A DNA stretch of 64,000 nt from Arthrobacter sp. ATA002. Lineage in GTDB: Bacteria; Actinomycetota; Actinomycetes; Actinomycetales; Micrococcaceae. The notes below the pieces were generated by a model, which worked only from the letters and a program-made list of their open reading frames with translations, searched no databases and had not been told where the DNA came from. Where the stretch lies: contig NZ_CP114015.1 of NCBI RefSeq assembly GCF_026898095.1, positions 2,232,001-2,296,000 on the forward strand, in the 5' to 3' direction. This document shows, piece after piece, positions 2,397 to 50,342 of this stretch. Numbering within the stretch: the stretch's first letter is position 1; each line of letters starts with the position of its first letter. Both the position numbers and the translations under genes were made by a program.

Positions 2397-3005
2397 ATGG
2401 ACATGGACGAGTCGATAGATCGCACCCTGGATGCCGTCGGGCCACGGCTGAAGCAGTTGCGGCAACGCCGGGACATCACCTTGTACGACCTCTCCGAGGA
2501 GACCGGGATCTCGACCAGCACACTGTCCAGGCTCGAGGCCGGGCTCCGGCGTCCCACGCTCGAACAACTGCTGCCGCTGGCACGCGCCTACGGCGCCACC
2601 CTGGATGAACTCGTCGACGCACCACCGACCGGTGACCCACGCATCAACCTGCGCCCGATACGCGCCAACGACGGCCGGACCATCCTGCCCCTCACCCGCA
2701 GGGCCGGAGGCATCCAGGCCTATAAGTTCATCCTCCCCAGGGGACGCGACGACGCTAAGCCCGACCTGCGCACCCACGAGGGCTATGACTGGGCTTTCGT
2801 TCTGAACGGCAATCTCCGACTCGTCCTTGGTGAGCACGATCTGATCCTCAAACCCGGCGAAGCCGCAGAGTTCGACACCCGTATCCCTCACTGGTTCGGC
2901 GCCACCAGCTCAGGACCCGTCGAATTCCTCACCCTTATCGGCAAACAGGGAGAACGGGCGCACCTGCGCACCAGCCCGACGCAACGCAACGATGGCCATC
3001 TCTAA
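2397..3005 (+). CDS. XRE-family regulator with C-terminal cupin sensor domain
   Basis: A 202-aa transcription factor. Residues about 18-72 are a Cro/CI-type helix-turn-helix (LKQLRQRRDITLYDLSEETG, then STSTLSRLEAGLRRP). Residues about 110-185 are a small-molecule-binding cupin with the usual His-rich barrel (RTHEGYDWAFVL, LKPGEAAEFDTRIPHWF). Such XRE-cupin proteins usually control a divergent enzyme gene in response to its substrate, here the fused oxidoreductase/methyltransferase. Two in-frame ATGs (2397 and 2403) are possible; neither has a strong Shine-Dalgarno. The reading frame is intact. Confidence 0.85.
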   Translation: MDMDESIDRTLDAVGPRLKQLRQRRDITLYDLSEETGISTSTLSRLEAGLRRPTLEQLLPLARAYGATLDELVDAPPTGDPRINLRPIRANDGRTILPLTRRAGGIQAYKFILPRGRDDAKPDLRTHEGYDWAFVLNGNLRLVLGEHDLILKPGEAAEFDTRIPHWFGATSSGPVEFLTLIGKQGERAHLRTSPTQRNDGHL

Positions 3006-7003: not shown

Positions 7004-7700
7004 ATGACCACCATCGGCATTCTCGGATCCGGACAGGCCGGAAGCACCATCGCCCGCGCGGGAATCGCCGCCGGTTACGACGTCGTCATGCAAACTCCGG
7101 GGCCCGCAGACCCTGCAGGGACTCGTCGGCGATCTGGGTCCGGGGGCGCGTGCCGCGACGGCTGCGGAGGCAGCAGTGGCAGCGGACTTGGCGGTCATTG
7201 CGTTCCCGTATGTGCCGGGCGAGACGCTGCCGGTCAAAGAACTCTCCGGAAAGATCGTCCTCGACACCAACAACTACATGGCGTGGCGCGACGGAAACTA
7301 CCCCGAGGTCGACTCCGGCCTCAAGACGGTCCATGAACTGCGCCAGGAAAACCTGCCCGGCGCCAAACTGGCCAAGGCCTTCACCCACATCCAGCACCAC
7401 GCACGCTCCCCCGTCCGTGTCCCCGGCGACGCGCTTCCCGGCCTGTTCCGGCTGGCCCGGCCCGCCGGTGCGCCGGACCGGATGGCGCTGGTGGTGTCCA
7501 GTGACTATCCCGACGCCGTCGAACTCGTGCGGGGCCTCTATGACGACCTGGGATTCGACACCGTCGACAACAGTCCGCTGAGCGAATCCTGGCGTAGCGC
7601 TCCCGGCACACCAATGTGGGAGCATTCCGTGGACGGCCAAAGCCGCGAGGAACTGATTGCCAACCTGCAGCGCGCAGTGTCCCCTGCCCGCGTCGAATAA
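7004..7700 (+). CDS. NADPH-dependent F420 reductase-like oxidoreductase, frameshifted
   Basis: About 232 aa when joined. The N-terminus MTTIGILGSGQAGSTIARAG is a Rossmann dinucleotide motif of the F420H2:NADP+ oxidoreductase-like family (also called NAD(P)-binding or ProC-like). After residue 28 two single bases are missing (near 7088 and 7098), and the frame ending at 7700 continues with DLAVIAFPY, GKIVLDTNNYMAW and ALVVSSDYPDAVELV. The ATG at 7004 follows GGAGAAACACTA. It probably reduces a small substrate or F420 with NAD(P)H; which one cannot be told. Confidence 0.75.
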
Positions 7701-7769
7701 CTGCCTGGTTACCCAGCGCGCCAAGAGCAAAACACCGGCTCGGCAGTATCCACGGCTGACCAATGAACA

Positions 7770-7811
7770 AGGGCCGGGCCCTGGGAGCCGCAGCGCCCGG
7801 ATCCCGGCCCT
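7770..7811. terminator. Candidate bidirectional terminator between convergent genes
   Basis: AGGGCCGGG (7770-7778) pairs with CCCGGCCCT (7803-7811) across a 24-base loop, in the gap between the converging F420-reductase-like gene and the channel gene. No U-tract is present, so the strength is uncertain. Confidence 0.35.
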
Positions 7812-7823
7812 CGCGTCCGGACC

Positions 7824-8651
7824 CTACACCTTCACCTTCGCCGTGAACTGGCGCCCCGGTGCGGTGCGCGCGTGGGTGCCGTAGATCATGAAGCCCACGA
7901 ACGTCAGGCCGCCGACCAGGTTGCCGACCACCGTCGGGATCTCGTTCCAGATCAGGTAATCCATCAGCGTGAACTCTCCCCCGAGCATCAGACCGATCGG
8001 AAACAGGAACATGTTGACCACGGAGTGCTCAAAGCCCATGTAGAAGAAGAGCATGATCGGCATCCACATGGCGATCACCTTGCCGGCCAGGCCGTCGGAC
8101 ATCATCGCACCCACGACGCCGGTGGACACCATCCAGTTGCACAGCACACCGCGGACAAAGAGGGTCAGCATGCCGGCGGCTCCGTGCTCGGCGTAGCCCA
8201 CGGTGCGTCCCTCGCCGAGATGCCCGATCGCGTTCCCCACCTCGCTCACCTCGGAGGAGAAGCCGTAGGTCCACACAATGGCCATCAGCAGGGCCGTCGT
8301 CAGGGCGCCGGCAAAGTTGCCGACAAACACGAGCCCCCAGTTCCTGAGCATCGACTTCAGGGTGACGCCCGGACGCTTGTCCAGCCAGGCGAGCGGAACC
8401 AGGGTGAACACACCGGTCAGCAGGTCGAAGCCGAGAAGATACAGCATGCAGAAACCGACAGGAAACAACACCGCACCGAGCAGCGGCGAGCCGGTCTGGG
8501 TGCTGACCGTGACAGCAAACGCTGCCGCAAGTGCCAAGATGGCACCGGCCATGTAGCTGCGGATCAGCGTGTCGCGCGTGGACAGCGCGACTTTCGCCTG
8601 GCCGGCGTCGATCATGCGGACCGCGAAGTCCTTCGGAATGACATAGCTCAT
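7824..8651 (-). CDS. Formate/nitrite transporter (FNT) family channel
   Basis: A 275-aa pentameric anion-channel family member with six membrane segments; the N-terminal MSYVIPKDFAVRMIDAGQAK leads into the first. Recognisable FNT features are the two re-entrant half-helix regions (near LYLLGFDLLTGVFTLVP and near RGVLCNWMVSTGVV) and the FEHSVVNMFLFPIGL block late in the protein. The start at 8651 is eight bases beyond the stop of cynS on the same strand, so the two are co-transcribed. FNT channels carry small monovalent anions (formate, nitrite, hydrosulfide); next to cyanase, cyanate uptake or bicarbonate handling is a reasonable inference. Confidence 0.88.
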   Translation of the reverse strand: MSYVIPKDFAVRMIDAGQAKVALSTRDTLIRSYMAGAILALAAAFAVTVSTQTGSPLLGAVLFPVGFCMLYLLGFDLLTGVFTLVPLAWLDKRPGVTLKSMLRNWGLVFVGNFAGALTTALLMAIVWTYGFSSEVSEVGNAIGHLGEGRTVGYAEHGAAGMLTLFVRGVLCNWMVSTGVVGAMMSDGLAGKVIAMWMPIMLFFYMGFEHSVVNMFLFPIGLMLGGEFTLMDYLIWNEIPTVVGNLVGGLTFVGFMIYGTHARTAPGRQFTAKVKV

Positions 8652-8659
8652 CGGGGCCC

Positions 8660-9112
8660 TTACCACTGGTACTTCAGGAACTTGCCGTCGATGATGACGC
8701 GCACGCGGTCCCCCTCGGGGTCCTCGCGCCGGGTCAGCTCGACGTTGCAGTTGATGGCGCTCATGATGCCGTCGCCGAATTCCTCGTGGATGGCCTCCTT
8801 CAACGCCGGACCGTACACGGCCAGCAGTTCGTAAAAGCGGTAAATGGTGGGATCGGACTTCAGCTCATCGCCCTGAATCCGGTAGGGCTGCTCCTGCAGC
8901 GCAAGGACGGTGTCACCGTCGAGCTCCAGCAGCGCGCCCACTTTTTCGGCGAGTTCCGCGGGCACCGGGTGTGACCCAAGGAGTGCGGCAATCGTCCACA
9001 GCAGCGGCCGGGCCAGCTGCCCGGCGATGTCCGCCCAGGAGGCATCCGAGCGGGCGACGGCGGCGCGCACCTTGATCGTGGCCTGGTCTCGTGTGGTGTT
9101 CCAGTTAGTCAT
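8660..9112 (-). CDS. cynS: Cyanate hydratase (cyanase)
   Basis: A 150-aa protein, close to the usual 156 aa. Cyanase decomposes cyanate with bicarbonate to ammonia and two CO2, giving detoxification and a nitrogen source. The N-terminal part is the helical lambda-repressor-like domain, and the C-terminal block PTIYRFYELLAVYG to GDGIMSAINCNVEL is the decamer-forming catalytic domain. The catalytic triad of Arg, Glu and Ser is intact as R92, E95 and S118 by position in that block. The ATG at 9112 follows GAGGAGACAAAA, a strong site. Gene order is cynS then the FNT channel, with a PAS-AraC regulator divergent; the classical cynT and cynX partners are absent. Confidence 0.93.
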   Translation of the reverse strand: MTNWNTTRDQATIKVRAAVARSDASWADIAGQLARPLLWTIAALLGSHPVPAELAEKVGALLELDGDTVLALQEQPYRIQGDELKSDPTIYRFYELLAVYGPALKEAIHEEFGDGIMSAINCNVELTRREDPEGDRVRVIIDGKFLKYQW

Positions 9113-48023: not shown

Positions 48024-48061
48024 TTGACAGTGAAGTAGGTTGAGGCACCATTGTTGTCCAC
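48024..48061 (+). promoter_or_regulatory. MerR-type promoter with long spacer; probable leaderless start
   Basis: A consensus -35 TTGACA (48024-48029) is followed after 19 bases by CATTGT (48049-48054), a weak -10. Long spacers of 19-20 bases that are twisted into activity by the bound regulator are the hallmark of MerR promoters. The spacer starts GTG and ends CAC with a weak internal dyad. The ATG at 48062 is seven bases after the -10 box, so the message may be leaderless. Confidence 0.6.
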
Positions 48062-49099
48062 ATGGATAACGACCTCTTCAGTATCGGAGATGTCGCGCGG
48101 GCCAGTGGCTTGAGCGTCAGCGCACTTCGCTTCTATGACCGGGTCGGTGTGCTGAGCCCAGTCATGGTGGATTCCAATACGGCTTACAGATGGTATTCAC
48201 CGGCCCAGCTTCGCTCTGCTGAACTGATCGCTGAGCTACGCCGTATAGGTTTACCCCTTCCTGAAGTCACGACGGTCCTGGCGCATCATGGTGACGCGAG
48301 AGTGCTCCGTGATGTGCTTGATGAGCACATTGTTCGACTCGAACAGGGCCTGGCCGCCGCGAAGACGGTGATCGGAAAAATCGAGCAGCAATGGGACGCT
48401 GATACAGGGGCTCAGTCCCACAGGTTTAGCGTCGAGTGCCATGAGCTCCGAAGGGCCCTGTCCTCCGTTCGGTTCGCGGTCGGATCCGATGAGGAATCCC
48501 CTCATCTTCACGGGATCCTTATGCAAGTACGACAGGGGCAGCTTCAGCTCACCTCCACTGACCGGCACCGGGCTGCCTTCTACGCGCTCGATATCTGTTC
48601 TGACTCACAGGACTTCAAATTTGTTCTGGCTCAATCAGGACTGGACGCACTACTAAACTTGCTCCAGGAAGACGGCACCGCATGTTTGTCAAAGACTTCC
48701 GAACTCACCATCTCCGTCCGTGAGAAGACCATAAACCTGCCGCTGCTCGATACCGATTTCCCAGATCTAACAGAAAAAGTCCAATCATCGTCCCGTGCTG
48801 TAAGCGCAACCGTGAAAAGGCAATGGTTCCGCAGTGTCCTCGGCAAATATTCAACCGTGGAACGGCGCTTACTCGAAATCGATCCATCTGGGCAGCTCTT
48901 AGTAAGGCTCGATAATGGCGCTCCCGATGATGATGCCCTCCTGCTGAACGCACGGTTCCTCTCAGATGCTCTCGAATCTGCGGTCGGGGAGATATTGAGT
49001 CTTGAGGTGAACGGGCCCGTAGCACCTCTGGCGATCCGCAGTATAGATAATCCGCATTCGTTCTCGGTGATCATGCCTATCCTCCGGGATAAGCAATGA
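48062..49099 (+). CDS. MerR-family regulator fused to DNA polymerase III beta-clamp domains 2 and 3
   Basis: A 345-aa protein. Residues 5-74 are a MerR winged helix (FSIGDVARASGLSVSALRFY, AYRWYSPAQLRSAELIAELR), and 78-112 the usual dimer coiled coil. Residues about 121-345 follow the sliding clamp DnaN: ELRRALSSVRFAV, LTSTDRHRAAFYAL, NLPLLDTDFPDL, LLNARFLSDALESAVGEI, GPVAPLAIR and the end FSVIMPILRDKQ. These parallel DnaN blocks (TDxxRLAV, LLDAEFP, NPxYLxDxL, MPVRL). The clamp's domain 1 is missing. Residues that line the peptide pocket of DnaN are kept: T166, H169, R170 and the M338-P339 end. I infer a drug or peptide sensor. Its stop overlaps the exporter start (ATGA). Base composition is visibly lower in GC than in the neighbours. 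Confidence 0.88.
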   Translation: MDNDLFSIGDVARASGLSVSALRFYDRVGVLSPVMVDSNTAYRWYSPAQLRSAELIAELRRIGLPLPEVTTVLAHHGDARVLRDVLDEHIVRLEQGLAAAKTVIGKIEQQWDADTGAQSHRFSVECHELRRALSSVRFAVGSDEESPHLHGILMQVRQGQLQLTSTDRHRAAFYALDICSDSQDFKFVLAQSGLDALLNLLQEDGTACLSKTSELTISVREKTINLPLLDTDFPDLTEKVQSSSRAVSATVKRQWFRSVLGKYSTVERRLLEIDPSGQLLVRLDNGAPDDDALLLNARFLSDALESAVGEILSLEVNGPVAPLAIRSIDNPHSFSVIMPILRDKQ

Positions 49100-50342
49100 A
49101 TTCAGATATCCTCGTCGGATCGTCAGAAATGCGGATTCCGAAACGGTACTGGGTTTGGCTCGGCGGTGTCACTCTCTCCTCTGTCGGAACTCAGATCCTC
49201 AGCTTCGGCATGGCGTGGGTCGCTGCCGGCTACGGTGGAATATTTGCCGGGCTCGTACTGACCGCGGTAAATCTTCCCCGCACGGTACTGCTTCTTGCAG
49301 GGGGTGCAGTCTCTGACCGTATTGGAGCTTGGCGGGTGATGATCTCAGGCGATATTGCCATGACGGTTGTGACCGCGTTGTTTGCGGGTTCGCTGCTGGC
49401 ATGGGGTCCCAATGTTTGGCTGCTTCTGATCATTGCAGTCTTGATAGGTATCGTGGACGCCTTCTACATTCCGGCCGCCGGAGCCATGCCTCGACGTCTC
49501 GTAGCTGGTGCCAAGCTCACCCAGGCCATGTCGGCCAGGCAAATCAGTCAGCAGCTCTCCTCAGTGCTTGGCGGCCCTCTGGGATCGATTGTCGTAACCA
49601 CGTTCGGACTTTTCGCTGCGGCCATCGTCAATTCGGCGGCTTATGCGGTGATGTTCATACTTCTCATTCTGATCCGGCCGAGAAATCCTGCACGTCCTGC
49701 ATCTGGGGGTGCCCGTGTCACGGGACAAACGGTCTTTCAGGATGCTCTGGCCGGTTTCGGGCTATCGATGAAGGATCCTCTACTCCGGCCGGTGCTCTTA
49801 ATGTTGATAGGGTCTGCAGCTTTTCTCCTGCCTGTGCTGGCGCCGCTGTTGCCGGTACTTGCCCGCCAAGAGGGGTGGAGTCCTACCGGCGCCGGCCTTG
49901 TTGTTGGCGTTGCCGGCGCTGGAACAGCTGTCGTTGCCCTGGCTGTGGTTTTCACTGGCGGTCTGCCTAGGCCAGGATTGGCTGGGTGCGCTGGGCTTGT
50001 GACGGCTGGGCTGGGAGTATTTGGTCTTGGGATTTTCTCTGAGCCCCTGCCGTCTATGATCTCCGGCGCTCTCATCGGAGTCGGCGCTGGCCTGTTCAGC
50101 ACACACCTTGGTCCTCTCGTGCTCGGTCGCACACCTGACACCCACTTGGGACGGGTACAGGCCGTGGTCGCGATGGCTCAAAGCCTGCCACTGCTCTTCA
50201 CCAATGTTGCTCTAGGCACACTTGCTCAGGCGGCAGGAGCCAAGGTCGCTCTTTTTTCTGTGCTATCGCCCTAGGCGTTATCGCCGCAGTCGCCCTCCGT
50301 TCTCCACACCTTCGTGCAGCCAGACGACTCGGCAACGAATAG
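49096..50342 (+). CDS. MFS exporter coupled to the MerR-clamp regulator, late frameshift
   Basis: A major facilitator of about 415 aa with 12 segments (LGGVTLSSVGTQILSFGMAW, SDRIGAWRVMISGDIAM, AMPRRLVAGAKLTQAMSARQ, RVQAVVAMAQSLPLLFTNVA). The ATG at 49096 overlaps the regulator's stop, so they are translationally coupled. The frame hits TAG at 50272 within the last helix; adding one base in the run of six Ts near 50256 restores CAIALGVIAAVALRSPHL and a stop at 50340-50342. Even the short form keeps most helices. It is probably the efflux pump that the regulator induces. Confidence 0.85.

Follow-up and report, generated by a model that had tools for sequence, protein, structure and literature searches.

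The window analysed here, a stretch of 64,000 nucleotides from Arthrobacter sp. ATA002 (contig NZ_CP114015.1, positions 2,232,001 to 2,296,000), encodes a protein that joins the helix-turn-helix (HTH) domain and coiled coil of a MerR regulator to domains 2 and 3 of the sliding clamp DnaN. Pfam matches and an AlphaFold2 model confirmed this fusion, which an initial annotation had read from the sequence alone. Taking the evidence from the family, the clamp pocket, the neighbouring genes, the operator, the predicted regulon and the clamp genes together, we consider the best explanation, with somewhat more speaking for it than against, to be that the clamp fragment acts as a sensor and that the regulator responds to the occupant of its pocket with efflux and clamp supply. 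We would give an even chance to the idea that such proteins are target-mimic antibiotic sensors, i.e., decoys of the drug site cut from an essential target, and answer occupation of that site with efflux and more target, to which at least one genome would add a second target insensitive to the drug. No description of a MerR-DnaN regulator was found in the open literature, as covered by titles and abstract openings and with subscription papers mostly outside the scope.

A MerR regulator carrying clamp domains 2 and 3

The N-terminal part of the regulator has a MerR-type HTH, matching Pfam MerR_1 over its cut-off (residues 6-74, E-value 2.2e-12). Behind it, the Pfam DnaN central domain was recognised at residues 124-235 (5.3e-13) and the DnaN C-terminal domain at residues 295-340 with 19.7 bits, under its 27-bit cut-off. 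The Pfam model of the DnaN N-terminal domain gave 27.8 bits on residues 121-231, which is the central-domain stretch of the regulator, and the NCBIfam dnan model matched residues 119-340 (3.6e-21) under the cut-off of that equivalog. The AlphaFold2 model (predicted local distance difference test score, pLDDT, 91.9) superposed on clamp structures across 223 residues at 2.4 A, and it contains the fold of clamp domains 2 and 3. It aligned with residues 123-366 of the E. coli clamp only, so that clamp domain 1 is absent, as had been proposed. A long helix of the MerR kind (residues 79-115) follows the HTH, and dimerisation through this helix is predicted. The motifs TDRHR (166-170), LPLLDTDFP (226-234), ARFLSDALES (297-306) and MPILR (338-342), on which the first reading leaned, were found in the translation at the positions given.

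By its HTH, helix and operator, the protein is a member of the MerR family, and it would work in the manner of MerR drug sensors, for example BmrR. TipAL and AlbA are further MerR multidrug activators, and GyrI-like and TipAS-like domains are the kinds of ligand domain they carry. With BmrR and other multidrug activators, as described in PMC7722741, the protein shares the MerR HTH, the coiled coil, a variable C-terminal sensor, a promoter with a 19-bp spacer and an efflux gene as target; it differs in that part of the clamp forms its sensor and in that clamp genes are among the targets of its relatives. With DnaN it has in common domains 2 and 3, their fold and the pocket for peptides and antibiotics. 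Lacking domain 1 and the interface residues, it is no sliding clamp, and it carries instead a fused DNA-binding domain.

The fusion forms a family in Actinomycetes. In a class-wide sample of 394 genomes searched with a regulator-family profile, matches covering both the MerR and the clamp halves were found in 30 genomes (in one of them the match begins at residue 34), and two further genomes gave fragmentary matches; many further matches at that threshold, covering the clamp half only, are taken as DnaN itself. Contigs of named genomes were scanned with an alignment query, a single-protein query having found nothing, and among the best 80 of 564 relatives Streptomyces and Micromonospora were commonest, accompanied by Kitasatospora, Pseudonocardia, Nesterenkonia and others. 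A tree of 47 rows, from which L107, L137 and L138 were excluded, separated clade A (24 rows, including the window protein) from clade B (23 rows) with support of 89/90. In 15 clade-B rows the regulator gene is followed by a gene for a tetratricopeptide-repeat (TPR) protein.

Several observations were made alongside. At locus L115 (locus positions 7467-9086, minus strand), one of these 15, the MerR-DnaN regulator and its TPR partner form a single open frame of 540 residues, a natural fusion that links the two proteins. In L100 and L101, the regulator gene is directly followed on its own strand by a gene for a DUF1905 protein (typed in L100). Two loci of the same order (L036 and L038) encode a MerR HTH followed, by eye, by a protein-phosphatase-2C (PP2C)-like domain, which makes another unusual MerR sensor fusion; a plasmid match (H10) is annotated PP2C. 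A match on a Paenibacillus plasmid (L042) was dropped as an ordinary dnaN.

Eighteen pocket positions of the clamp, taken from PMC11139829, were mapped by alignment onto 92 regulators and 22 clamps; partial or mis-started sequences (L107, L116, L124, L137, L138, L231) and then sequences at least 80% identical had been removed (123 to 92). In E. coli numbering, L155, T172, R176, P242, M362 and P363 are retained in 90-100% of the regulators, and all but two of the 92 have Y, H or F at position 175. Among 61 clamp-conserved positions, the residue class is retained on average in 92% of cells at the 14 pocket positions versus 61% at the other 47 (permutation p 0.0005), and in 0.86 versus 0.57 and 0.80 versus 0.53 at looser cut-offs (p about 0.002); these p values are indicative, because the regulator rows are related. 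The ring interface positions 272, 273, 298 and 304 and the basic position 198 are not retained in the same rows, and 298 and 304 are gaps in the window protein.

The pocket is thus retained across the family and changed in the window protein. Alignment with E. coli DnaN upheld the assignment of T166, H169, R170 and M338 as counterparts of T172, H175, R176 and M362, and P234 and P339 are also present. The window protein departs from the clamp consensus at five of the 18 positions, whereas its relatives are mostly canonical. Two of the five are R152>S146 and R246>E238; R152 is lost in most of the family, and position 246 varies among clamps. The exporter-linked relative L136 has TNRHW where TDRxR is expected.

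Table 1 Features of the regulator-exporter locus (window positions).
Feature	Position	Strand	Basis or remark
-35 TTGACA of the regulator-exporter promoter	48024..48029	+	TTGAC common to most clade-A relatives
19-bp spacer with operator, of which the right half GGTTGAGG is retained and the left half is degenerate compared with the palindrome of the family	48030..48048	+	Position weight matrix (PWM) score 9.7
-10 CATTGT; 7 nt to the start codon (ATG 48062), putatively leaderless	48049..48054	+	Upstream alignment
MerR-DnaN fusion regulator, 345 residues, ATG start	48062..49099	+	Pfam, NCBIfam, structure model
MerR HTH domain, residues 6-74	48077..48283	+	Pfam MerR_1
Long helix, residues 79-115 (MerR-type dimerisation coiled coil, assigned by position)	48296..48406	+	Structure model
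Clamp domain 2 equivalent, residues 117-235	48410..48766	+	Pfam, structure model, structural match
Pocket motif TDRHR, residues 166-170 (E. coli T172-R176)	48557..48571	+	Clamp alignment
Clamp domain 3 equivalent, residues 247-342	48800..49087	+	Pfam, structure model, structural match
C-terminal pocket edge MPILR, residues 338-342 (E. coli M362-L366)	49073..49087	+	Clamp alignment
Major facilitator superfamily (MFS) exporter, 392 residues, 4-base overlap with the regulator	49096..50274	+	Open reading frame (ORF) call, Pfam, NCBIfam

Operators at regulator, exporter and clamp genes

The long promoter spacer pointed out by the initial annotation is present in the window, with a layout that is probably leaderless and with one operator half degenerate. 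Spacers of 19 or 20 bp are given for MerR promoters in PMC7722741. Clade-A upstream sequences have TTGACYCTCRACCNNGTYGAGG in common, along with a 19-bp spacer and a -10 element such as CAGAGT, the start codon often lying about 7 nt on; in clade B the sequence runs TTGACCTTCRAG..., and its spacer is also 19 bp. The clade-A operator, consisting of TTGAC and a palindrome inside the spacer, occurs in nearly all clade-A relatives, so that the family has the palindromic operator in a 19-20 bp spacer that is typical of MerR, and the window has the spacer and one half-site. A PWM trained on 35 self sites, i.e., those of the regulator genes themselves, scored at least 15 upstream of 92 of the 98 clade-A-type loci other than the window and at least 30 in 86, some scored loci being of the same species as training sites; five of the six low-scoring loci probably have misplaced start calls. 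Window position 2841, with a PWM score equal to that of the real site, lies inside an ORF (2397-3005) and was rejected.

Most relatives have no MFS neighbour, and since adjacency alone was insufficient as a test of function, the operator was used instead. With at most one mismatch, 17 sites were found in 20 genomes versus none for the reversed control: 14 directly upstream of the regulator, two upstream of linked MFS genes and one elsewhere. The two linked genes belong to genomes of the same order (G263 and G231), where a perfect operator sits on the MFS promoter with the MFS start codon in leaderless position and the copy in front of the regulator itself matches less well (3 and 2 mismatches, respectively). 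A relaxed pattern in 17 genomes gave 21 sites versus 2 control sites (14 self, two linked MFS, one unlinked MFS, one dnaA-dnaN and three without assignment that lie in open frames). Searches with up to three mismatches were too noisy, the pattern being several-fold above the reversed control in most genomes, and counts were limited to at most one mismatch because that control understates chance for a GC-rich palindrome. One genome (G647) has two MerR-DnaN regulators (L136 and L127) with different operators, and that of the exporter-linked L136 is clade-B-like.

The window exporter matched Pfam MFS_1 along its length (residues 24-365, 6.5e-28) and NCBIfam 2A0121 under the cut-off. It resembles MFS_1/MFS_3 and 2A0121 drug exporters in these profiles, from which drug export is predicted, and differs from them as a rare subtype. 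The four-base overlap noted at first stands; the gene had been placed as far as 50342, and its ORF stops earlier (Table 1). By eye, the protein is some 20 residues shorter at its end than several relatives. Neighbours were examined for 119 regulators, comprising 40 whole-genome and 79 named loci with species shared between the sets; five loci with no regulator gene call (L103, L106, L112, L137, L174) were left out. An MFS gene of the window subtype adjoins the regulator in five whole-genome loci (the window, L102, L107, L130, L136) and two named loci (L165, L185). Among 12 regulator-bearing genomes, the five linked ones each have one window-subtype MFS gene (E-value at most 1e-15) and the other seven have none. 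At a threshold of 1e-38, 8 of the 297 genomes sampled from the order have the subtype, three linked and five (from a single genus) not beside a regulator; the window-subtype genes of genus g48 (L147-L151) had no MerR-DnaN gene among the neighbouring genes examined. Besides the two window-subtype genes, the 79 named loci had nine neighbouring genes with at least 8 predicted transmembrane segments: six alike (one typed as a sodium/proton exchanger), an ArsP permease, an MFS of another type and one without type.

The operator pointed to a wider regulon in family f53, which is probably Micromonosporaceae, because named Micromonospora loci show neighbour genes alike in size and order. At most one mismatch gave 84 sites in 45 of 121 f53 genomes, the reversed pattern giving 1. 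We read 82 of the 84 contexts, leaving out the sites in G1111 and G1039: 38 lie at the regulator, 14 at TPR genes of the partner family seen in clade B, 11 at MFS genes, five at YunG-family genes from five genomes (L275, L279, L302, L304, L313; two typed PF24585), six between dnaA and dnaN facing dnaN and one before a second dnaN; seven were unassigned. The MFS targets comprise three of the window subtype far from the regulator (L274, L296, L346), seven of a second subtype, and L306. A self site was present in 38 of the 45 genomes and a classified non-self site in 28, with both in 24. The concentration of sites in few gene classes (75/82) is preferred as the control, because the reversed pattern understates chance. 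A start codon was called 6-8 nt past the -10 element at 26 of the 38 self sites, four of the five YunG sites and the second dnaN. G477 has a site in front of an unlinked MFS gene and a second one in the interval from dnaA (identified by Pfam) to dnaN. Control of exporters, which the initial annotation had inferred from adjacency, is thus supported beyond it, since the operator occurs on linked MFS promoters in two relatives and before unlinked MFS genes elsewhere; general adjacency did not hold.

We also scanned 1.5 kb upstream of 30 dnaN genes with the PWM. A same-strand site scoring at least 30 was found about 690 nt upstream of dnaN in seven of the eight genomes of genus g150, and the 22 loci of other genera scored below 0. 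In these seven sites 23 of 31 columns are identical, compared with none of 31 in the block just upstream; the flank on the downstream side, with DnaA boxes, is also conserved. In G1062, a second dnaN has the operator immediately in front of it; its product shares 44% identity with the reference clamp, and a 74% copy lies elsewhere. This second clamp is full-length and has the pocket changes T172>I, P242>V and V360>T. Many f53 genomes contain another DnaN-like match (roughly 30-45% identity), and one such match was found under the operator.

PMC5694481 reports that griselimycin resistance depended on amplification of the dnaN-ori region. According to PMC10817943, the producers of griselimycin and mycoplanecin carry second DnaN genes; mypR belongs to the mycoplanecin cluster, and griR is the equivalent gene of the griselimycin pathway. 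GriR and MypR are likewise non-replication relatives of the clamp, as is the second clamp under the operator in G1062; they are full-length DnaN, whereas the window protein joins a truncated clamp to MerR and serves as a regulator. The link to the clamp drawn by the initial annotation is supported at the family level by the retained pocket and by operators that face dnaN or precede an altered second clamp; the lining is changed in the window protein.

Mechanism and alternative explanations

We propose that the clamp fragment would serve as a sensor by keeping the domain 2/3 pocket for polymerase peptides and clamp-targeting natural products. A clamp-binding compound would fill this decoy pocket, and the occupied MerR dimer would realign the 19-bp-spacer promoter, raising the regulator itself and the MFS exporter directly behind it, presumably on one transcript, and the exporter would then expel that compound. 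Activation of the promoter by the ligand is expected because of MerR precedent. In relatives, the TPR protein, the YunG protein, unlinked MFS exporters and either the chromosomal dnaN, transcribed from its upstream site, or a pocket-altered second clamp would also be raised.

Several results weigh against this mechanism. In the window protein, L177>A171, V247>K239 and R365>L341 alter the pocket lining, and therefore its ligand may not be griselimycin-like; an exporter-linked relative from Nesterenkonia (L165) has the same alanine at 177 and, at 365, likewise a hydrophobic residue. The core pocket keeps 9-13 of 13 residues in six exporter-linked rows versus a mean of 12.1 in the other 86, and retention in the window protein alone is not clearly higher in the pocket (11/14) than in the rest (27/47). 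The window operator has lost its left half and scores only 9.7, and none was found within 6 kb around dnaN of the same genome. Homologues are not always next to exporters, a point that the initial annotation had put forward as a check, the window-subtype MFS lying beside 7 of 119 regulators, and no operator was found upstream of the nine other multi-transmembrane neighbour genes of the named loci. Only 6 of 11 MFS and 6 of 14 TPR sites in f53 have a start codon 6-8 nt past the -10 element, and the gene calls came from simple scoring. Among the clamp genes, one g150 genome (G386) has no site upstream of dnaN, and in the others about 690 nt with DnaA boxes separate the site from the start codon. 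Finally, griR and mypR stand in a biosynthetic setting, whereas no antibiotic cluster was seen by eye at the second-clamp locus of G1062 among the genes on 60 kb of its 62-kb contig.

The main rival, which we consider unlikely though well worth weighing, is that the fragment senses replication status from within, binding the clamp motifs of the cell's own polymerase and repair proteins and adjusting stress functions and the supply of clamps during clamp shortage or stalled replication. What the regulators retain is indeed the peptide pocket, through which known clamp partners bind according to PMC11139829, and operators face dnaN in seven of eight g150 genomes. However, MFS genes are the commonest assigned targets after the regulator and the TPR gene, G263 and G231 have their perfect operator at an MFS gene, the pocket varies among exporter-linked members, and a second clamp with an altered pocket is better explained by a drug than by homeostasis.

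Less probable still is that the clamp fold has been reused as a general hydrophobic drug sensor, as in other MerR multidrug regulators, for ligands unrelated to the clamp. The MFS targets and the pocket changes in the window protein and its exporter-linked relatives would fit such a sensor, but the exact pocket is retained family-wide and clamp genes are among the targets. A sensor of clamp-attacking proteins, such as phage inhibitors or toxins that fill the same pocket, is very improbable: a clamp-Gp168 complex is among the structural matches of the model, SocB acts at the clamp pocket (PMC5694481) and a second clamp would help here too, but exporters could not remove proteins.

Possible meaning for resistance in actinomycetes

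If the sensing of clamp-binding compounds followed by efflux and clamp supply is true, these bacteria would detect an antibiotic through a decoy of its target, so that the binding site of the target would set the specificity of the sensor. The regulator with its operator could then serve as a reporter for clamp-targeting natural products not yet known, and genomes could be mined around the operator. Efflux, more clamp and an altered clamp would be routes of resistance to clamp-directed drug candidates that are already wired together in soil actinomycetes.
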